NCBI GenBank assembly: GCA_015228935.1
Contig: JADGCO010000045.1
Location: forward strand, 1 to 35,518
From: Magnetococcales bacterium
GTDB lineage: Bacteria > Pseudomonadota > Magnetococcia > Magnetococcales > DC0425bin3
DNA length: 35,518 nt
Direction of reading: 5' to 3'
A program made the position numbers and the translations under genes. Below, in pieces: positions 10,692-30,797 of the stretch. Each line of letters starts with the position of its first letter. Positions within the stretch are counted from its first letter, which is position 1. The notes under the pieces were generated by a model that had not been told where the DNA came from, did not search any database, and saw only the letters and a program-made list of their open reading frames with translations.

Positions 10692-11279
10692 ATGATTCTG
10701 GTCCAGCATCGGATCAACACCCGGGCCGGGTTGCAGCAGGTTCCGCCCCGGTACGGCATCGAAATGGATATCCGCTCCCAGGGGAGCCATCTGGTTTTGC
10801 ACCACGATCCCTTTCAACCTGGCGAGGCCCTGACCGATTGGATCCAGGATTATCGCCATGCCCTCCTGATTCTCAACGTCAAGGAGGAGGGGTTGGAAGA
10901 GCCGGTGCTGGCCATCATGCGGGAACGCAACATTGATAATTTTTTCTTTCTGGATCAATCATTTCCTTTTTTGATGCGGACGGTGCGCCGGGGGGAGCGT
11001 CGCTGTGCGGCCCGGGTCTCGGAATTTGAATCCGTTGCTACGGCTCTCTCTCTGGCGGGTCAGATCGATTGGGTCTGGGTAGACTGTTTTACCCGTTTCC
11101 CCCTGGATCGGACGGATTATCACCGCTTGCGGGAGGCCGGTTTGCGTCTATGCCTGGTCTCCCCGGAGTTGCAGGGACGCACGGACACGCAGGAAATCAT
11201 GCAAATGCGCACTCTTTTGGATCATAACGGCATGTTCATGGATGCTGTCTGCACCAAATATCCTGACCGCTGGCAATGA
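10692..11279 (+). CDS. Glycerophosphodiester phosphodiesterase-like protein
   Basis: A 195-residue protein of the PI-PLC-like/GDPD superfamily, TIM-barrel enzymes that hydrolyse phosphodiester bonds such as glycerol-3-phosphate esters. Visible catalytic-type residues are the N-terminal VQHRIN (His-Arg), GIEMDIR (Glu/Asp metal ligands) and LVLHHDPF (second His), then LILNVKEEG. The C-terminal CTKYPDRW also resembles GDPD ends. It is shorter than a typical 240-300 residue GDPD and has no signal peptide, so it is probably cytoplasmic; the natural substrate may be a cell-envelope intermediate. ATG 10692 is supported by AGGGAAGG at 10675-10682; the longer frame runs into the tandem repeat. Its stop overlaps the next ATG by ATGA. 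Confidence 0.8.
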   Translation: MILVQHRINTRAGLQQVPPRYGIEMDIRSQGSHLVLHHDPFQPGEALTDWIQDYRHALLILNVKEEGLEEPVLAIMRERNIDNFFFLDQSFPFLMRTVRRGERRCAARVSEFESVATALSLAGQIDWVWVDCFTRFPLDRTDYHRLREAGLRLCLVSPELQGRTDTQEIMQMRTLLDHNGMFMDAVCTKYPDRWQ

Positions 11280-13363
11280 CCATCACCCCCCTCTTTCGCC
11301 ACCCTTTTTTTCTGGTCGGGATGGGTTTGCGCCTGTTGTTGATCTTTTGGGCAGAACCGTGGGTCCAATCCCACTGGTTCGTTCCCTTCCTACAGGAATT
11401 TTTGCGCCATCCAACCCTCAACCCCTGGACAACGCATCTGCTCCAGGGGGGAGATGGCATGGCCTTTCCCTATGGATTGGTCATGTTTCTGGTCTATCTT
11501 CCGGGTGTGGCCCTTGGCACGCTCCTGGATCATCTCTGGCAGATGACCGTTTTTTCTCATTGGGGATTTGCCCTCACCAATCTGGGGGTTGATCTGGCCA
11601 TCCTGTTTCTGTTGTTGCGTATTCTGGAAATCAGTGAAAGAAAAATACTGCTCTTTTACTGGCTCTCTCCCATCGTACTCTATGTCGGTTACTGGTACGG
11701 ACAGACCGACCTGGTGCCACTGGCCTTGTTGATGGCGGCATTCCTGGCTTTGCATCACAATCGTTTTCAACTGGTTGCAATCTGTCTGGCCATGAGCATT
11801 TCCGCCAAGCTCAGTTTTATCGTGGCGGTTCCCTTCTTTCTCTTCTTTTTCATCAACAATCGCCGTTATGCTGCGGTGCGCTCCCGGTTCATGACCATCC
11901 TGGGAGTTGCGCTGGTCCTGCTCAATCTGCCCCTGCTCACCTCCAGCGGGGGCATGGAAATGATCCTGAACAACCGCGAAATGGCCAAGCCGTACTGGGT
12001 ACGCATTTCCGTATCGGCAGAGGCGGATCTGTTTGTGGCTCCCCTGGTCTATCTGCTCGTTTTGTTTCATATCTGGCGGCAGGGACGCATGAACCGGGAG
12101 ATGCTGTTTTTTGCCACGGGTCTTGGCTTCATGAATCTGGTCACCCTGACCCCCTCGTCGGTGGGATGGTTTGTCTGGATCGTGCCGTTTCTGGTGGCCT
12201 GTCATGGCCAGGTCAGGGGGTGGCGGATCGACCTTTTGAGTCTTGTTTATTCAATTCTTTTTCTGATACTGGCCCCCATCAATGCCCCCGGAGCCTCTCT
12301 GCCCTGGTTGCAGATTGATTTTTCATCTCTGGGACCCGCCGTTCGGCACCTGCTGGGTGAGCGGGGGGTCAGTCTCATCCAGACCGGCCTGACCGGCGTG
12401 GGGGCGATTCTGGGCTGGTGGATGTTTGCGCGGGGGATCGTGCGCGACACCTACTCCCGCCTGACCCGCAAGCCCCTGGTCATCGGTATCTCCGGGGATT
12501 CCGGCAGTGGCAAGGATTATCTGGCCCACGCCATGGCCCATCTCTTTGGCAACGTGTCGGTGGTGGAAATATCCGGAGATGATTACCATCTCTGGGACCG
12601 CTACGCCCCCATGTGGAAGGCGTTGACCCACCTGAACCCCAAGGCCAACGACCTGAAAAAATTTCACCACGATCTGGAATCCCTGGTGGAGGGACATATC
12701 GTGCTGTGTCGGCGGTATGATCACAAAACCGGGCGCTTTTCACCTTTGACCCGGGTAGAAGGGCGGGATGTCGTCATTGCGTCTGGATTGCATGCCCTGC
12801 ATCTGCCGGAGCTTTTGGATCTCATGGATGTGCGGGTGTTTCTGGACATGGACGAGGGGTTGCGCCGTCATCTGAAAATTCAGCGCGATGTTCACAAGCG
12901 GGGGCGGTCATTCCAGGAAACCCTGGCTTCGCTGGAAAAACGTCAGCCGGATCGGGAGCGGTTCATTCTGCCGCAGGCCCGGCATGCCGATATCACTTTT
13001 CGTCTGCAACCCATTCTGCCCCTGCCCTCGGCAGATGATGCCGACTCGGCAACCTCCACCCGCCTGATCAAACTGGGCGTCACCTTGCAACGCAGCCCGT
13101 TTTATGAAGATTTATTGCGTGTCCTGATCGGTTTGCTGGGCCTGTTCCTGGAATCCGAACACGATCCGGAAACGGGTCTTTATCATCTGACCATCGAGGG
13201 ACGTCCCCTGGGCACGGAAATCCAGATGGCTGCCCGGCTGCTCATTCCGCAACTGGATGATTTGACCGGACTGGAACCCCAATGGCACGATGGCATGACC
13301 GGTTTGATGCAATTGATTGTTCTGCTCCATGCCGTTTATGTACTGAAGAAAGACAGGTCATAA
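11276..13363 (+). CDS. Fusion of a multi-pass membrane domain and a uridine-kinase-like domain
   Basis: A 695-residue two-part protein. Residues 1 to about 390 hold roughly ten hydrophobic segments with loops such as YWYGQTDLVPLALLMAAFLA that resemble GT-C polyprenol-sugar glycosyltransferases. From about residue 398 a soluble P-loop kinase domain begins: GISGDSGSGKDYLAHAMA with P-loop GDSGSGKD at 407-414, followed by VVEISGDDYHLWDRYAP, as in uridine kinase/phosphoribulokinase. An Asp occupies the Walker A position usually held by Thr or Ser, an exchange also seen in some nucleotide-kinase-like families. Residues about 600-695 form a further uncharacterised domain. ATG 11276 overlaps the upstream stop, so the gene is probably translationally coupled. 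Substrate unknown; a lipid-carrier or sugar kinase is plausible. Confidence 0.75.
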   Translation: MTITPLFRHPFFLVGMGLRLLLIFWAEPWVQSHWFVPFLQEFLRHPTLNPWTTHLLQGGDGMAFPYGLVMFLVYLPGVALGTLLDHLWQMTVFSHWGFALTNLGVDLAILFLLLRILEISERKILLFYWLSPIVLYVGYWYGQTDLVPLALLMAAFLALHHNRFQLVAICLAMSISAKLSFIVAVPFFLFFFINNRRYAAVRSRFMTILGVALVLLNLPLLTSSGGMEMILNNREMAKPYWVRISVSAEADLFVAPLVYLLVLFHIWRQGRMNREMLFFATGLGFMNLVTLTPSSVGWFVWIVPFLVACHGQVRGWRIDLLSLVYSILFLILAPINAPGASLPWLQIDFSSLGPAVRHLLGERGVSLIQTGLTGVGAILGWWMFARGIVRDTYSRLTRKPLVIGISGDSGSGKDYLAHAMAHLFGNVSVVEISGDDYHLWDRYAPMWKALTHLNPKANDLKKFHHDLESLVEGHIVLCRRYDHKTGRFSPLTRVEGRDVVIASGLHALHLPELLDLMDVRVFLDMDEGLRRHLKIQRDVHKRGRSFQETLASLEKRQPDRERFILPQARHADITFRLQPILPLPSADDADSATSTRLIKLGVTLQRSPFYEDLLRVLIGLLGLFLESEHDPETGLYHLTIEGRPLGTEIQMAARLLIPQLDDLTGLEPQWHDGMTGLMQLIVLLHAVYVLKKDRS

Positions 13364-14151: not shown

Positions 14152-14574
14152 ATGAGTTCTGGCAATATGGACCAACTCGACCTGACACCACTGGAAAACG
14201 CCGTCCAACGACTTGACGAAGGGTTGGCCCGCCACCAGCGCGACACGACCGACACACTGATACGTGACGGTCTGATTCAAAGATTTGAATTTGTTTATGA
14301 AATCAGCCATAAAATCCTGAGACGCCACCTGGAAAGGATCTCTCCCTCCCCGGAACAATTCGCTGGCATGGCCTTCGCTGACCTCATTCGTACCGGCAAC
14401 GAGCATGGCCTGCTGCTGGGGGATTGGGGGGACTGGAAGAGTTATCGGGAAAGACGTGGGAAAGCCAGTCATACCTATAACGAAGAGATGGCCAATGACG
14501 TTGTCCAGCACATTCCTGCCTTCCTGAAAGAAGTCCGTCACCTTCTGAATCAGCTACAAGCAAAGAATATTTGA
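14152..14574 (+). CDS. hepT: HepT-like HEPN protein (HI0074 family)
   Basis: A 140-residue all-helical HEPN-domain protein of the HI0074 'nucleotidyltransferase substrate-binding' family, found as the toxin-like partner in type VII HepT/MntA modules. The RX4HXY motif is present as R102-GKAS-H107-T-Y109 within ERRGKASHTYNEE; in studied systems the R and H cut RNA and the Tyr is AMPylated by MntA. Family sequence IQRFEFVYEISHKILRRHL is also visible. ATG 14152 follows GCAGGA. It lies 16 bp after the HAD gene and five bp before the MntA-like gene, the usual pair arrangement. Toxicity is not known for this copy. Confidence 0.85.
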   Translation: MSSGNMDQLDLTPLENAVQRLDEGLARHQRDTTDTLIRDGLIQRFEFVYEISHKILRRHLERISPSPEQFAGMAFADLIRTGNEHGLLLGDWGDWKSYRERRGKASHTYNEEMANDVVQHIPAFLKEVRHLLNQLQAKNI

Positions 14575-14578
14575 CGCC

Positions 14579-14824
14579 ATGGCTGAAACCGAAAAACCCC
14601 TGCTCGATATCCGCCCGGACCACCTGCAAATCGTGCAGAATATCCTGAAAAAACATGTGCCTGACCTGGAGGTTTGGGCGTTTGGTTCCCGTGTCAAATG
14701 GACAGCCAAACCCTACTCGGATCTGGATTTGTGCGTCATATCCGATACGGCACTGGATGTTTCGGTGCTGGCTGAACTGAAGGATGATTTTTCTGAATCC
14801 GACCTGCCAAAGCAAAAAAATTGA
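14579..14824 (+). CDS. mntA: MntA-like minimal nucleotidyltransferase, apparently truncated
   Basis: An 81-residue protein of the MNT/HI0073 family, the nucleotidyltransferase antitoxin partner of HepT. The active-site motif GSX10DXD is intact (G36-S37 ... D48-L-D50 in FGSRVKWTAKPYSDLDL). The sequence follows the family up to FSESDLP at residue 77, then ends in KQKN instead of the usual PxKVDVVDW-type strand and the final 20-30 residues. That strand normally carries the third acidic residue, so catalysis may be lost. An A-rich run (CAAAAAAATTG) marks the break, but I see no family continuation in other frames downstream. Confidence 0.75.
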   Translation: MAETEKPLLDIRPDHLQIVQNILKKHVPDLEVWAFGSRVKWTAKPYSDLDLCVISDTALDVSVLAELKDDFSESDLPKQKN

Positions 14825-14864
14825 CTTCCGACATATTTTCCTCCAGTATTCACCAGTATGTGGT

Positions 14865-14891
14865 CAGGCCTTGGGCATGCCTGTTTTTTTT
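14865..14891 (+). terminator. Candidate intrinsic terminator after hepT-mntA
   Basis: CAGGC (14865-14869) pairs with GCCTG (14879-14883) across a nine-base loop and is followed by eight T residues (14884-14891). The stem is only five pairs, but the position after the pair and before the ATPase genes is right for a terminator. Confidence 0.5.
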
Positions 14892-14920
14892 GTTTCGTTT
14901 TCTTTTTTGGAATCCATGAT

Positions 14921-15883
14921 ATGGGCTTTTCGACACCCGCCAGCACCTGCCCGTTTGTCGCCGGTGGCATGATTACCGATCCCCGCCTTTTTGTCGGGCG
15001 CGAGAGCGAATTGCATTTTTTGTCGAGCCGCATGACCGGTGCCCAGGTGACCAGCGTGAATGTGTATGGTCCCCGGCGAACCGGAAAATCCTCTCTTGTG
15101 TATCATTTTTATTCCACTTGGCCAGAGATGGTTGCAGATCCGGGTAATTATGCTGTGGCCTTTCTGGACCTGAAAAACGACCCATGCCACACGTCTCCGG
15201 AATTTTATCAAAAGTTGGCGACAGCCTTGCGGGATTTGCCGACTGTGCGTGGACGACCCGATTTGGCCGACCCCTTGCGAAATATCCGGAAATATGGAGA
15301 TTTCGAGTCAGCCTTGCAGGCATGGAAAGTTCAGAAGGTTCGGCCCGTTTTTTGTCTGGATGAGTTTCAAGTGATCACCTCATCTGCCGAGTTTACCAAC
15401 GATTTCTACAATGGTCTGCGCGCCTTGTTGAATCGCAGCCTGCTCATGTTGGTGTTGGTTACCCATGATCCCTTGGGCAGGTTGCGGCAGAAAGACAATT
15501 CCACTTCGCCGTTTTTTAACCTGGGTCTTCATATTCAATTGGGTGATTTGAAGGATGATGAGGTCAAAAAGCTGCTGGCTCTTCCCTCTCCTGGTGCAGA
15601 TGCCGATTCTTCCCCTTGTTTGACCACCGACGAACAAAATCTTGCCCGGCAATGGGCAGGGAATCACCCCTACGCCTTGGCCTTGGCCGCCAAAACTCTT
15701 TTTCATCTCCGACATGCGGGAAGCATGGAAAAGGCTCGGCAATCCTTTGTTCGGGAAATCAGCAATGTTTCCAGCATGAGTGCATGGTGGCGTATCTCTC
15801 ATTTGCCAATATTGAACGAAATATTTTTATTGATGAAACGGGTTGGAACGTCTGCCTTTCCTGCTGGCAATGCCTCAAAATAA
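14921..15883 (+). CDS. STAND-type P-loop ATPase, paralogue 1 (no membrane tail)
   Basis: A 320-residue AAA/STAND-like ATPase of unknown function. It has N-terminal CPFVAGGMI, an FVGRESEL entry motif, Walker A GPRRTGKSS (50-58), Walker B CLDEF with Asp 147, and a GNHPYALALAA motif from about residue 247, the Gly-x-His-Pro signature of STAND NTPases. It is clearly paralogous to the gene at 16017 over almost its whole length. Where that paralogue continues into a transmembrane helix, this copy ends soon after the shared WWRI(S/C)(H/N)LPI. I use ATG 14921 because the N-terminus then aligns with the paralogue (both have CPFV at residues 10-13). No strong ribosome binding site is seen. Confidence 0.75.
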   Translation: MGFSTPASTCPFVAGGMITDPRLFVGRESELHFLSSRMTGAQVTSVNVYGPRRTGKSSLVYHFYSTWPEMVADPGNYAVAFLDLKNDPCHTSPEFYQKLATALRDLPTVRGRPDLADPLRNIRKYGDFESALQAWKVQKVRPVFCLDEFQVITSSAEFTNDFYNGLRALLNRSLLMLVLVTHDPLGRLRQKDNSTSPFFNLGLHIQLGDLKDDEVKKLLALPSPGADADSSPCLTTDEQNLARQWAGNHPYALALAAKTLFHLRHAGSMEKARQSFVREISNVSSMSAWWRISHLPILNEIFLLMKRVGTSAFPAGNASK

Positions 15884-15888
15884 ATTTC

Positions 15889-15959
15889 CGCACTTTCCAT
15901 GAATTTTGGGTCTGTTTTTTATTTAAAAATTATATTTGATGTTTAATTATGAAAGTGCG
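15889..15959. promoter_or_regulatory. AT-rich interval with a 9-bp inverted repeat between the ATPase paralogues
   Basis: CGCACTTTC (15889-15897) is the exact reverse complement of GAAAGTGCG (15951-15959), enclosing about 53 very A/T-rich bases. It lies between the two ATPase paralogues. It could be an operator, a recombination trace or a long-loop hairpin; nothing in the window decides. Confidence 0.4.
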
Positions 15960-16016
15960 TTACGTCAAGATTGAATCTTTCAGGAGACAGACATAACATG
16001 TCATGGGAATCTTGCG

Positions 16017-17114
16017 ATGCCTCATAATGCACAAAGAGTCCCATGCCCGTTCGTGCCTGGAGGCATGATTGCTGATCAGAAACATCATACCTCGCAAATT
16101 TTTGTCGGACGCCAAAGCGAGTTGGAAACCTTGCTGGCCTGTATGACCAGAAACCCGCCAACCAGTGTGAACGTCCATGGTCCCCAGAGAATTGGCAAAT
16201 CGTCTCTCGCTGGTCAGTTTTGCTCCATCTGGTCAAAACATTTTTCAGATCAAGATAAAAATAATTATGCCGTCGCCTTTCTGAACCTGCTCAAATGCGT
16301 GACAGTTACTGATTTTTATAGAGAAATTGCGAAAGTTCTGTTGGATCTTCCAGAAGTGCATGCCCGGCCAGGGCTGGCCGCACCTTTGCAAAATGTCCAG
16401 GATTATGACAGCTTTGAAGCCGCCCTGGTGGCATGGAAAAAACAACAGGTGCGACCCGTCCTTTGTCTCGACGAGTTCAATCACCTGGGCGACATTCCTT
16501 CGGAATTCACGAATAATTTTTTCAAAAATTTGCGTTTATTGGTGGATGGCGGCCTTGTCATGCTGGTGATGGTCACCAGAAAACCCCTGGGCAGGATACA
16601 AAAATCACTCAAACTTTCTTTTCATTTCTTTAACCTCGGGCAACATATTGAATTAAGGAAATTTACTAACGATGAGGTCAGGGAACTACTGACTCTCCCT
16701 TGTTTGAATGCAAAGGCTGGATCTGCCCCTTGTTTGACAAAAGCCGAGCAAGATATTGCCCGGAAATGGGCCGGGAATCACCCTTTCGCCTTGGCACTGG
16801 CCGCAAGCTTTCTTTGTCAATATCGACACACTGAAGGTGCCCAGGAAGCTCGTCATAAATTTAACTATGAAATTAATAACAATATCAGCCTGGGTTGGTG
16901 GTGGCGTATATGCAACTTACCCATATCAGGTGAAGCACCCGATATGCTCAATAATCTTGCAATGTTTATATTTAATATCGGCAATCAAGCGTCTAATATC
17001 GGGAAAACTATTTTTGGGCTTGGCGTAATCATCGTTATTTTACTGATCCTGATAGGAATTATCCCCGCAAGGGAGTTTTATGTCGAATTTATTAAGCCAA
17101 TCTTCGTTAAATAA
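16017..17114 (+). CDS. STAND-type P-loop ATPase, paralogue 2 with C-terminal membrane helix
   Basis: A 365-residue ATPase paralogous to the preceding gene. It has N-terminal CPFVPGGMI, IFVGRQSEL, Walker A GPQRIGKSS (55-63), Walker B LCLDEF, the sensor-like region LVMLVMVTRKPLGRI and GNHPFALALAA. It ends with one hydrophobic helix (about 332-351, GLGVIIVILLILIGIIPA) and a short basic tail, so the ATPase domain should sit on the cytoplasmic face of the inner membrane. The next gene's start lies 35 bp inside its 3' end. The coding sequence is richer in A and T than flanking core genes. CAGGAGA at 15981 is rather far from the ATG, so the exact start is uncertain. Confidence 0.75.
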   Translation: MPHNAQRVPCPFVPGGMIADQKHHTSQIFVGRQSELETLLACMTRNPPTSVNVHGPQRIGKSSLAGQFCSIWSKHFSDQDKNNYAVAFLNLLKCVTVTDFYREIAKVLLDLPEVHARPGLAAPLQNVQDYDSFEAALVAWKKQQVRPVLCLDEFNHLGDIPSEFTNNFFKNLRLLVDGGLVMLVMVTRKPLGRIQKSLKLSFHFFNLGQHIELRKFTNDEVRELLTLPCLNAKAGSAPCLTKAEQDIARKWAGNHPFALALAASFLCQYRHTEGAQEARHKFNYEINNNISLGWWWRICNLPISGEAPDMLNNLAMFIFNIGNQASNIGKTIFGLGVIIVILLILIGIIPAREFYVEFIKPIFVK

Positions 17115-19455
17115 GACACATCCCTCCTTCTTCTCCCTCCCCTGGTTGAAAGAGTGCGGGCGTATTCTCTATTGGAGTTTCTTCAAGCCCTTCACTTTCA
17201 ACAAATGGTTGAAAGATATTCATCCATATCTTAAACACGATGACAATCCATTCAAGTTCAAAAAGGAATTTGCTTCCAATCCAGGCTTGCGTACTTATGC
17301 TTGGCAAGTTTGGTGGATTTCCTTGCTGGCTCCTTTGCTGTTGACCCTTGTTTTTGGAATTGTATGGCCAGGACGCTTTGATTGGGAAAAAACTGTCATG
17401 TTTTTACTCGGCTGGTCTCTTGGTCTTCTGATTTTACGCATCAATAAATCGGTCATTCAGTTCTTTATCGCGGCACTTGTTTTAGTTTTTTTGACCATAT
17501 CAATTGGGAAATATTCTGATATTTTGCCATTTAATGATATATTTTTTCAATATAAAAGAATTATCGTTTACTTAAATAATATAGAATATATAAAACCTCC
17601 GCTTAAGAACGCAGCCACCATCGCGTCAGGCGTCGCGTTCGGCGTCGCGGGAGGCGTCGCGGTAGGCGTCGCGGTAGGCGTCGCGGGAGGCGTCGCGGGA
17701 GGCGTCGCGGGAGGCGTCGCGGTAGGCGTCGCATGTATTATAGGTGTATTACGAATACCGTTTTGGATCCCGGAATGCCTTTTGCTTCTTGGACTTAAAG
17801 GATTTATTGGAAATAAGGACCCGTTACGTACCCTGAAATGGGCACCCTTGTGGGGCGATCAAGTCATTTATCTTCCTCTGCCATTCATGGATGGCATCAT
17901 CCTGGCTGCCTACCGGCAAGAACCCCAGCAAGCCATCACTTTCCTGGAATATTTGACGACTTCGACCAATCAACAAAAACGGGCGGCACGGGTCATGGAA
18001 CGGGTCGCTCTGGAAGAAGCGGGACGGCGACGCAACAGCCATGACATTGCCTTCATGGCGGAATCCCTGCAATGGCTGCCCCAACCCTATCCAAAAGAGT
18101 TTGGCAGCTACCTGCCCCAAATGCTGGAGATTGCCCAGGGGGTCCGTGCATCCCTGGAGGCATCCTCTGCCCATCGAAGGATGGAGTTGTTGCAATCACC
18201 CATTGCCCAATTGGGCCGGTTGAAAAACACCCTCACCCTGGAAAAAAAAGCCAGGCGGGCAACGGCCTGGGGCGGAGTCGCCAACCATTGGCAAGGGATC
18301 CTGGAAACCGCCCACCGCTCCCTGGCGGAAGAGGCGAAAAAATCCGGGGAAATTCCCAACCCCTATGTGGCGGGGCAACCCCTGAATCCCGAGGAGTCCC
18401 AAAGCCGCTTCAAGGGCCGCCGCGATCTGTTTCGCCGCATGGAAGAGTTGGCCCTGGCCTCCCAGGCCCCGATCCTGTTGTTACTGGGAGGCCGTCGCAC
18501 CGGCAAAAGCTCCAGCCTCAACTTTTTGCCGGAAAAAATGGGACCCGAGTGGATCCCCCTCGTGGTGGATGGCCAGGGACTCTCCCTCTCGACCTCCATT
18601 CCCGGTGTCGTCGAAGGGTTGATCAAAGCCATCCTGGAGAGTGCCCGCCGCAACCGCAACCTCCAGCTTCCAACCCCGGACAGGGAACAGGTGCAGAAAG
18701 ACCCCTTCCCGGCCTTTCTGCACTGGATGGAACAGGCTGAAAAGAGCGTCGCGCCAGAGAAAAAATTTCTTCTCTGCCTGGATGAATTCGAACGCCTGGG
18801 GCAGGTGGTGGAGCGCAACCATGGTGACCCAGGTCTGCTCAACTTTTTGCGCCACGTTGCGCAAAAACGGCGGCACTGGGTGGTGCTGTTCAGTGGTGTC
18901 CACCCCCTGGAGGATCTCCCCCCCTACTGGTCCGATTGCCTCATCAACTCCCAAACCATCCACATCAGCTTTCTGCAAACGGATGAGGCACGGGAGTTGA
19001 TCCAACAACCCATCGATCAATTCCCGGATATCTACACACAAGAGGCCGTGGAGGCACTGCTCCACATCACCCGCTGCCATCCCTATCTCGTGCAACTCCT
19101 CTGCTCCCTGTTGGTCGAGCGGCTGAATGCCACCCGACAGACCCGGGTGACGGCAGCCCAGGTGACAGCAGACCAGGTGACAGCAGCCCAGGTGACAGCA
19201 GCAGACGTGGCCGCCGTGGCTCCCTTGGCCTTTGACCGGGGCATGGGATATTTCGACGAATGGTGGCGCACCACCTTGCATGACGATGAACGAAAAATTC
19301 TGGAAACAATTCATCGCCAGGAACCGGTGGGTGACGGGAAAAACCCGGCACTGCGCCGCCTGTTGCGCTTGGAAGTTATTGAAAAAAAAGATGGGCAGTA
19401 TAAATTCCAGGTCCCGCTCCTGGAACAGTACGTGGCGCTCCAGTTGGGGGAGTGA
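17080..19455 (+). CDS. Large membrane-anchored STAND-type ATPase with GVA repeats
   Basis: A 791-residue protein, family not named. Residues 1-80 are soluble; about three hydrophobic segments follow at 85-150, then a (GVAx)n stretch at about 185-218 that is Gly/Val/Ala-only and could form further membrane helices. A helical middle part follows. The ATPase domain has FKGRRDLF, Walker A GGRRTGKSS (470-478), Walker B CLDEF with Asp 568, and a CHPYLVQLLCSLL motif from residue 666 that matches the STAND His-Pro signature. A VTAAQ repeat (about 690-712) leads to a C-terminal winged-helix-like region (DDERKILETIHRQ ... LLRLEVIEKKDGQYKF). ATG 17080 follows GGGAG (17071-17075) and overlaps the previous gene by 35 bp, implying co-translation. 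Probable membrane-bound signalling or defence NTPase; substrate unknown. Confidence 0.75.
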   Translation: MSNLLSQSSLNKTHPSFFSLPWLKECGRILYWSFFKPFTFNKWLKDIHPYLKHDDNPFKFKKEFASNPGLRTYAWQVWWISLLAPLLLTLVFGIVWPGRFDWEKTVMFLLGWSLGLLILRINKSVIQFFIAALVLVFLTISIGKYSDILPFNDIFFQYKRIIVYLNNIEYIKPPLKNAATIASGVAFGVAGGVAVGVAVGVAGGVAGGVAGGVAVGVACIIGVLRIPFWIPECLLLLGLKGFIGNKDPLRTLKWAPLWGDQVIYLPLPFMDGIILAAYRQEPQQAITFLEYLTTSTNQQKRAARVMERVALEEAGRRRNSHDIAFMAESLQWLPQPYPKEFGSYLPQMLEIAQGVRASLEASSAHRRMELLQSPIAQLGRLKNTLTLEKKARRATAWGGVANHWQGILETAHRSLAEEAKKSGEIPNPYVAGQPLNPEESQSRFKGRRDLFRRMEELALASQAPILLLLGGRRTGKSSSLNFLPEKMGPEWIPLVVDGQGLSLSTSIPGVVEGLIKAILESARRNRNLQLPTPDREQVQKDPFPAFLHWMEQAEKSVAPEKKFLLCLDEFERLGQVVERNHGDPGLLNFLRHVAQKRRHWVVLFSGVHPLEDLPPYWSDCLINSQTIHISFLQTDEARELIQQPIDQFPDIYTQEAVEALLHITRCHPYLVQLLCSLLVERLNATRQTRVTAAQVTADQVTAAQVTAADVAAVAPLAFDRGMGYFDEWWRTTLHDDERKILETIHRQEPVGDGKNPALRRLLRLEVIEKKDGQYKFQVPLLEQYVALQLGE
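17629..17732 (+). repeat. 12-bp tandem repeat encoding (GVAx)n
   Basis: GGCGTCGCG plus a variable triplet (GGA, GTA or TTC) is repeated about nine times without frame change, giving GVAFGVAGGVAVGVAVGVAG and onwards. The variable triplet alternates Gly, Val or Phe. The block is strikingly GC-rich inside an A/T-rich part of the gene and is likely to vary in copy number. Confidence 0.9.
19146..19210 (+). repeat. 15-bp tandem repeat encoding VTAAQ
   Basis: About four copies of a CAGGTGACAGCAGCC-like unit encode VTAAQVTADQVTAAQVTAAD. It forms an apparent linker between the ATPase domain and the C-terminal winged-helix-like region. Confidence 0.85.
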
Positions 19456-19493
19456 CATTTTCCGCAGCCTCTGCATCTTCGGTGCAAAGCATC

Positions 19494-19522
19494 GTGACGG
19501 AGGGGGAGAGTCCTGCTAGTAT
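19494..19522 (+). promoter_or_regulatory. Candidate sigma-70-like promoter for pyrG
   Basis: GTGACG (19494-19499, 4 of 6 to the -35 consensus), a 17-bp spacer and TAGTAT (19517-19522, 4 of 6 to the -10). It lies 115 bp before pyrG. The spacer ends in GAGAGTCCTGC, the same 11-mer found before ycjX. Weak by consensus; called because the spacing is right and a new transcription unit is expected here. Confidence 0.35.
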
Positions 19523-19630
19523 GGGGGGATTGGATTGGGCTGTTCCCTTCACCTGCCGGCGAGAGGTCAAAAATCGCCTGCCGGCCTGGCACGGAACCTG
19601 ATCCCGGCTGCAATGCAAAAAAGTGGGTAG

Positions 19631-29723: not shown

Positions 29724-29840
29724 ACTCTCCTGCAACAAGCCATGTCCGTTCGTGTTGCCTCCTGGCGACAACGGTCACCCTGCTGGTACATCGTCTGCTC
29801 CACGGTCAGCTCTTTTTTCCCACCAGATCCCGCACATTCG

Positions 29841-30797
29841 ATGATTGCTCCACCTGATGAATTCGATGTGCCATGGAAAGATATCCTGGAAAATTATTTT
29901 CCGGAGTTTCTGGCATTTTTTTTGCCGGAAGCCTTCCAGGAGATCGATTGGAAACGCGGCTTTGTCTTCCTGGACAAGGAACTGGCCCGTATCACCCGTG
30001 CTGCAAAAATCGGTGATCGCCGAATGGACAAACTGGTCAAAGTATGGCGTCATGGCGATGACAAGGAACTCTGGATATTGATCCACATCGAAATCCAGGG
30101 CAATCGCAAACCGAATTTTGCCGAAGGCATGTATGTCTACCAGTACAGGGCCTATGACCTGTACCATAAACCAGTGGTCGGCTTGGCCGTATTGGCTGAC
30201 GAGGAACCTGGTTGGAGACCTGCGGAATTTGGTTACGCCATGTGGGGCACCCAACAAAGCTATCGGTTTACCGCCATCAAGCTGTTGGACTATCAGGAAG
30301 CCGGGTTGGAAACGTCCACCAATCCGTTTGCCATCGTTGTTTTGGCACATTTGCGTGCCAAAAGAACCAGACACCAACCTGTGAAACGTTACCAGGTCAA
30401 ATGGCACCTGATTCGTGGCCTGTATAGAAGCGGTTATGATCGTAAACAGGTGATAGATCTGTTTCGATTCATTGACTGGGTCCTCCATTTGCCGCCAGAA
30501 CTTGACTATCGGTTGCAAACAAAAATCACCGCATTCGAGGAGAAGCAAAAAATGCCCTATATCTCAAGTGTGGAACGCATAAGTGAAAAAAAGGGGGAGA
30601 AAAAGGGGGAGAAAAAGGGAGAAAAAAAGGGGGGGGCTCAAATATTGACTCGCCTGTTGCAACGCCGTTTCGGCACACTACCAACATGGGCTGTGGAAAA
30701 AATCGCTCAGGCTGATTTGCCATCCCTGGAAGAGTGGAGCCTCCAAATATTGGAAGCCCAGTCCCTGGAAGCGGTTTTTACGGACAACGTGCCCTAA
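29841..30797 (+). CDS. PD-(D/E)XK nuclease-family (Rpn/DUF4351-like) protein
   Basis: A 318-residue protein resembling the transposase-derived Rpn/DUF4351 group, which share a PD-(D/E)XK endonuclease fold. Candidate catalytic residues are Asp 63 in RRMDKLVKVW and Glu 84 in LIHIEIQGNRKPNFAEGMYVYQ, giving D-x20-E-x-Q where the Lys is replaced by Gln, common in this group. The C-terminal part has a Lys/Glu/Gly-only stretch (EKKGEKKGEKKGEKKG) from a purine-run repeat at 30586-30634, followed by LTRLLQRRFGTLP, typical of DUF4351. ATG 29841 is chosen for the family-like N-terminus (FDVPWKDILENYFPEFLAFF). Such genes occur in many copies and are often mobile; activity in recombination is a family inference. 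Confidence 0.8.
   Translation: MIAPPDEFDVPWKDILENYFPEFLAFFLPEAFQEIDWKRGFVFLDKELARITRAAKIGDRRMDKLVKVWRHGDDKELWILIHIEIQGNRKPNFAEGMYVYQYRAYDLYHKPVVGLAVLADEEPGWRPAEFGYAMWGTQQSYRFTAIKLLDYQEAGLETSTNPFAIVVLAHLRAKRTRHQPVKRYQVKWHLIRGLYRSGYDRKQVIDLFRFIDWVLHLPPELDYRLQTKITAFEEKQKMPYISSVERISEKKGEKKGEKKGEKKGGAQILTRLLQRRFGTLPTWAVEKIAQADLPSLEEWSLQILEAQSLEAVFTDNVP
30586..30634 (+). repeat. Purine-only repeat encoding (EKKG)n
   Basis: A G/A-only stretch of about 49 bases built on a 12-bp GAAAAAAAGGGG-like unit repeated about four times, encoding EKKGEKKGEKKGEKKG. The long homopurine run suggests slippage; polymorphism would be expected among strains. Confidence 0.85.

Follow-up and report, generated by a model that had tools for sequence, protein, structure and literature searches.

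A conserved, overlapping pair of STAND-type ATPase genes in Magnetococcales and its relatives fused to restriction-modification proteins

The methylation-associated defence system (MADS) includes a methylase (mad2), a specificity protein (mad5) and an ATPase (mad8), roles that also appear in the names of the PADLOC models. BREX- and Dnd-related systems employ ORC/STAND ATPases, sometimes as an active copy paired with an inactive one (PMC12839542, PMC10853773), and single STAND proteins act as antiphage sensors according to two further reports (PMC12931631, PMC12169576). Here we analyse three adjacent STAND-type ATPase genes, A1, A2 and B, in a 35,518-nt stretch of DNA from a Magnetococcales bacterium (contig JADGCO010000045.1; hereafter the window), the last two of which represent a gene pair found in other genomes of the order. 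Our literature search found no description of a paired-STAND or STAND-methylase system, of the A–B pair or of its form fused to restriction-modification (R-M) proteins. The first-pass annotation of the window could not match the genes to a named system; there is still no such match, the PADLOC hits being weak. We put at roughly one in two the probability that A2–B is a conflict module, directed against phages or plasmids, that comprises two genes, spreads horizontally and has a dedicated STAND/ORC-Cdc6 ATPase pair at its core, together with a putative membrane output.

A conserved pair of overlapping genes

The genes and their junction are arranged as follows.

14921..15883, + strand: gene A1, 320 amino acids (aa); STAND/ORC-Cdc6-type ATPase, a paralogue of A2 without the C-terminal transmembrane (TM) helix; the open reading frame (ORF) is open from 14858
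16017..17114, + strand: gene A2, 365 aa; STAND ATPase encoded by the 5′ gene of the conserved pair; a single TM helix at its C terminus
17080..19455, + strand: gene B, 791 aa; membrane protein with a GVA-repeat, a helical middle domain, a STAND ATPase and a C-terminal winged-helix-like region
17080..17114, + strand: 35-nt overlap of the A2 stop region with the B start; an AAGGGAG ribosome-binding site lies just 5′ of the B ATG at 17080

This layout agrees with the first-pass annotation, which had proposed three neighbouring STAND-type ATPase genes (14921–19455), the last two translationally coupled, two soluble or single-helix paralogues (A1 and A2), and a third protein combining TM segments, GVA-repeat, ATPase and winged helix; the last two overlap by the 35 nt given above, and the ribosome-binding site before the B ATG is a good one. 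The motifs it had listed as common to the three proteins were likewise recovered: Walker A reads GPRRTGKSS in A1, GPQRIGKSS in A2 and GGRRTGKSS in B, Walker B is CLDEF throughout, and the His-Pro (HP) motif is NHP, NHP and CHP, respectively. Walker A and a Walker B with the catalytic Glu are thus present in all three and were invariant in alignments A4 and A9; in A2 they occupy residues 55–63 and 152–153 (DE), and Arg173 is invariant as well. Pfam assigned A1, A2 and B to the STAND/ATPase_2/AAA_16 cloud, the scores being weak, close to the curated gathering cut-offs and mostly slightly below them: nSTAND1 matched A2 (E = 7.5e-7) and B (2.5e-5), and ATPase_2 matched A1 (5.5e-7). A2 scored above the cut-offs for nSTAND1 and TniB, A1 scored above that for AAA_22 and just reached that for nSTAND2, and B fell just under the nSTAND1 cut-off (24.5 against 27.1). 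A sequence search of the PDB returned nothing convincing. A and B, as we call the 365-aa and 791-aa families, are distinct paralogues, and their profiles matched over 272 columns in hhalign (E = 3e-19).

A and B are co-inherited, adjacent and usually overlapping. A search with the A profile detected this family in 7 of 48 Magnetococcales genomes (the window genome, G000, together with G026, G031, G035, G039, G045 and G046), and B adjoined A in every one of them; the only further A match, in G012, covered 86 residues within a frame of 2435 aa and was kept apart from the seven. The chance of two families sharing the same 7 of 48 genomes is ~1.4e-8 assuming independence, although the relatedness of the genomes makes this figure optimistic. 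The co-occurrence check proposed in the first-pass annotation for the 365- and 791-residue families was therefore clearly positive, and its two refuting conditions, scattered singletons and membership of a housekeeping family, are excluded. The overlap measured 35 nt in the window, 32 nt in G039 (from its ATG), ~35 nt in G026 (TTG start), 4 nt in G031 and 8 nt in both G046 and an Acinetobacter ursingii plasmid; in G045 it existed only with a TTG start, and in G035 the ORFs as called were 295 nt apart. Among ~350 other genomes of the phylum, B had no relative at a cut-off of 1e-12, and A-like matches occurred in three: two were partnerless single ATPases encoded in polysaccharide loci, and the third was not recovered as a called ORF.

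A1 was found in the window genome only. The trio is therefore not the conserved unit, and we rejected it as such; the unit is the A2–B pair.

Fusion to restriction-modification proteins and horizontal movement

Relatives of the pair were also found in R-M loci. In G046 (L021, 674–11805), HsdR, HsdM and HsdS are followed by a 1387-aa protein that joins an N6-methylase and one specificity domain to a B-type ATPase, and its gene overlaps that of a 546-aa A-type partner. An Acinetobacter ursingii plasmid (NZ_MH220285.1; L044, 7062–14827) encodes HsdR, then a fusion of N6-methylase, specificity and STAND domains (1323 aa) and an ATPase of 520 aa; further conflict-type genes nearby are those for WYL, Mov34/MPN and 3′-5′ exoribonuclease proteins, and a second plasmid of this species (L045) additionally carries ThiF and ABC-three-component genes. 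The Acinetobacter ursingii plasmid set is an unnamed R-M variant. The profile of the R-M partner matched A at 1.4e-12 and B at 7.5e-7, and that of the R-M fusion matched B at 1.3e-26 and A at 3.5e-10. Because the profiles match each subunit to its own counterpart (A to A, B to B), the ATPase pair was conserved when its front end switched from a membrane to an R-M type; judged from these comparisons, the same A:B pair was shown to be used with either a TM region plus helical domain or an N6-methylase plus specificity domain. Such subunit-specific pairing by independent profiles also means that the pair of ATPases predates its front ends. Walker B is degenerate in the R-M partner (DGFD), whereas A1, A2 and B of the window retain DE. 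A protein of G031 is intermediate in form: its TM region is rich in Ala, and its middle domain is a weak counterpart of that in the window B. The methylase region of the G046 fusion protein also contains a repeat linker rich in Gly and Asp.

In the window, the genes lie between a HAD-type gene and pyrG. The segment from ~14811 to 19620 is missing from the corresponding regions of the available relatives, and the pair is absent from both same-genus relatives and from the same-family genome. In the closest complete relative (G002), DNA-level synteny begins at the first bases of pyrG; since HAD and pyrG are unlinked there, lying on different contigs, no empty site could be shown. Flanking genes differed at every pair locus: G039 has a PF02636 methyltransferase and HEPN/MNT, G026 has an EF-hand protein and an M16 peptidase, and G045 has genes identified by eye as SNase-like and CheW-like. 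The middle-plus-ATPase part of B was 63% identical between G000 and G045 and 51% between G039 and G045, whereas pyrG showed 66.9% and 79.5%, respectively, G039 and G045 being in one genus. The unrelated neighbourhoods and a B similarity that contradicts host relatedness indicate that the A–B pair moves horizontally.

The G+C content at third codon positions (GC3) was 0.55 in A1 and 0.45 in A2, and within B it rose from 0.47 (codons 1–230) to 0.60 (231–430) and 0.71 (431–791), compared with 0.74 in pyrG and 0.67 in the HAD gene. The claim that base composition is unlike that of the flanking core genes therefore stands for A1, for A2 and for codons 1–230 of B, as far as the end of the B TM region, but not for the ATPase half of B, where GC3 turns host-like. 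The pairs of G039 and G045 showed the same gradient, low and then host-like. Sequence divergence is also faster in A and in the TM part of B than in the ATPase of B.

A separate similarity links two of the genomes. A 3.4-kb segment of the window genome (L056, 5261–8626, on C2) matches one of G035 (L020, 1740–5105) at 94.7% identity, the two genomes belonging to different families; the match begins inside a B gene, of which G000 keeps only 122 aa (G035 type). It reflects either a recent transfer with gene replacement or a mis-binned contig.

Architecture of B, proposed role of the pair and neighbouring genes

The following segments were delimited in B.

17299..17772, + strand: hydrophobic/TM region, residues ~74–231, from a Kyte-Doolittle scan; 29–45% identity between homologues
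17628..17732, + strand: 12-bp tandem repeat, 8.8 copies, in frame, encoding GVAG/GVAV within the TM region
17878..18342, + strand: helical middle domain, residues 267–421; AlphaFold2 predicted local distance difference test (pLDDT) score ~66–91; highly conserved FLEYLTTSTNQQ motif
18352..19180, + strand: STAND/ORC-Cdc6 ATPase core; Walker A 470–479, D568-E569, invariant Arg591, HPYL 667–670
19142..19202, + strand: 15-bp tandem repeat, in frame, encoding VTAAQ; unique to B of the window
19252..19452, + strand: C-terminal winged-helix-like region; helices plus a conserved YxFQVPLLExY end

B thus has two or more predicted TM segments plus the hydrophobic GVA stretch. The 12-bp repeats recur in B of G039 and G026, and G045 has a non-repeat TM sequence instead. 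The absence of the VTAAQ repeat from the B homologues suggests length variation in this protein. A ends after a helical lid or with a TM helix, and Pfam detected in neither A nor B a repeat family of the kind that forms the typical C-terminal sensor superstructure of STAND proteins. AlphaFold2, run with three to four sequences as input, gave a mean pLDDT of 54 for B and 53 for A2; the best fold match of this weak B model was an ORC subunit (E = 2.9e-4), which is only supportive.

A2–B is probably a conflict module because the pair travels between distantly related bacteria and is built into R-M enzymes elsewhere. The intactness of both Walker motifs in A2 and B also counts for this reading. 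The defence or signalling setting suggested in the first-pass annotation accordingly gains support from the R-M-fused relatives. In such a module, A and B would assemble as a nucleoside triphosphate-bound hetero-oligomer, with the invariant Arg173 of A2 and Arg591 of B, 21–23 residues past Walker B, as candidate Arg fingers, and foreign nucleic acid or protein would trigger the switch. In the membrane version, the TM/GVA region of B might cluster and, with the TM tail of A, perturb the inner membrane and stop the infected cell; A1 could serve as an additional, soluble form of A that modulates assembly. The conflict role is more secure than the membrane-effector step. Our wider proposal is a tentative one: the A:B pair may be the plug-in switch of an undescribed bipartite class of conflict systems, which would lead either to membrane killing through the TM/GVA region or to restriction through the type I methylase-specificity protein and HsdR, so that the same sensor/assembly logic would drive both.

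Several observations weigh against a conflict module. Neither A2 nor B contains a recognisable effector such as a nuclease, NADase or protease, and both lack classical sensor repeats. Apart from a degenerate HEPN/MNT, no known defence genes lie elsewhere in the window. Searches of GenBank phages and IMG/VR found no relatives and hence no phage-borne copies, and we rejected phage cargo as an explanation. The putative TM/effector role of B is drawn only from its hydrophobicity, the AlphaFold models are weak, and the TM tail of A is not essential, since it is missing in A1 and in G045.

The absence of an effector enzyme and of other validated defence genes around the pair would also suit a membrane-bound signalling or transcriptional switch without a defence role, in which B uses its TM domain to detect a cue from the membrane or from outside the cell, and the ATPase pair and winged helix relay it to DNA or a partner protein. 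The TM and GVA front, a helical middle domain that could serve as transmitter and the winged-helix-like C terminus are compatible with this scheme. We nevertheless regard it as rather unlikely, given the patchy, horizontally moving distribution, the fact that R-M operons employ this pair of ATPases too and the lack of any conserved neighbour fit as a regulon target.

The mobility of the locus and the ORC fold match would also be expected of a mobile-element ATPase pair left after transfer and acting in TniB/TnsC-like target selection or ORC-like replication or partition. Weak profile matches (TniB, 8e-6 for A2; Orc1/Cdc6 TIGR02928, 0.002) and a probable tyrosine recombinase gene, recognised by eye ~2 kb from the G045 pair, point the same way. 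However, the whole STAND/ORC class yields similar weak matches, a TM region is ill-suited to a transposition ATPase, and no transposase, terminal repeats (including paired ones) or replication genes lie next to any of the seven loci, which makes this origin improbable.

A1 and A2 are 49.7% identical, retain 59 and 56, respectively, of 69 outgroup-invariant residues and show a ratio of nonsynonymous to synonymous substitution rates (dN/dS) of ~0.38. By these measures both genes are under constraint and A1 is not decaying; the notion of A1 as a pseudogene was dropped on the same figures. These values speak against a tandem expansion of ordinary STAND ATPase genes with no conserved joint function, in which A1 and A2 are redundant or decaying. 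The loss of the C-terminal tail from A1 and the 122-aa remnant of a G035-type B elsewhere in the window genome would fit such an expansion, but A never occurs without B, the gene overlap is conserved, and the co-occurrence of A and B already contradicts it; we consider it improbable.

Upstream of A1 lie two genes that the first-pass annotation had described as a HEPN/MNT pair beside the trio.

14152..14574, + strand: HEPN gene (PF08780, HI0074 family); apparently intact, scoring 110 bits against PF08780; probably outside the module
14579..14824, + strand: MNT nucleotidyltransferase, truncated to 81 aa; similarity to relatives stops after SDLP, and the left edge of the novel segment lies at ~14811

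The adjacency in the window is real, but the MNT is truncated, and HEPN/MNT adjoins the pair in just two of the seven genomes, upstream on the same strand in the window and downstream on the opposite strand in G039. The window MNT lacks the FKVDIVEW segment (including KVD) seen in relatives and is therefore not intact, and this antitoxin partner is probably inactive. We also rejected a simple insertion into the MNT gene: no 3′ part of it is left after B, and there is no empty site. Because the window genome and G039 (4.6–4.7 Mb) contain only four and six PF08780 copies, respectively, adjacency at two of seven loci is above chance expectation; we read it as shared accessory-gene hotspots rather than one operon, and the neighbour is probably incidental to the module. 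Despite this direct adjacency in two genomes, a single composite toxin-antitoxin/defence operon of HEPN toxin, truncated MNT and ATPases is very improbable, as side and strand differ between the two, the window MNT is broken and HEPN/MNT is not at the loci of G045, G031 and G046 nor, as far as seen, of G026 and G035, and we rejected HEPN/MNT as a module component.

Two other genes of the window were noted. A DUF4351 gene (29742–30797) has related copies near the G031 pair loci (L022, 10914–11288; L058, 1722–2030) and is apparently a common accessory gene in Magnetococcales. The region 11276–13363 encodes a 695-aa fusion that joins a multi-TM N-terminal half to a PRK domain of the uridine-kinase type and is conserved in G002 (44%).

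Comparison with known systems

AVAST and bNACHT systems also have a STAND switch at the core of antiphage sensing. They are, however, single large proteins with an effector, a STAND domain and a C-terminal sensor, whereas the window has two proteins without a recognisable effector or repeat sensor; PADLOC gave no Avs match, and Pfam gave no NACHT match above cut-off and no effector domain. BREX- and Dnd-related systems are conflict systems with ORC/STAND ATPases too, but Pfam and PADLOC detected no PglZ, BrxC, HerA or DUF499 component in the window. MADS shares the theme of methylase plus ATPase with the R-M-linked relatives, whose A partners weakly matched the PADLOC mad8 model (4.1e-6 and 4.3e-4). 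It differs from the window, where no mad2 methylase or mad5 specificity gene was present among the genes scanned and A2 and B had no matches to mad models.

With STAND/ORC-Cdc6 AAA+ ATPases in general, the pair shares the Walker A GxRRxGKSS, an hhhhDEF Walker B, the HP motif, the candidate Arg finger and, in B, the winged-helix-like end. It departs from them in lacking superstructure-forming sensor repeats, in consisting of obligate divergent subunits and in carrying a TM/GVA front end. If the proposed role is correct, A2–B would show that two obligately paired STAND ATPases can be transferred together from one setting to another, here a module with membrane output and an R-M enzyme. It would thereby tie NLR-like switches directly to type I R-M, and it would account for a set of unnamed Magnetococcales genes of AAA-like type; as a small two-gene system, it would be suited to testing the purpose of a hetero-STAND pair.

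The type I R-M-linked paired ATPases of G046 and NZ_MH220285 differ in having an N6-methylase plus specificity front end on B, an HsdR partner, the order B then A, and DGFD in A. Their likeness to the window pair lies in the homology of A to A and of B to B and in the overlap of the two genes.

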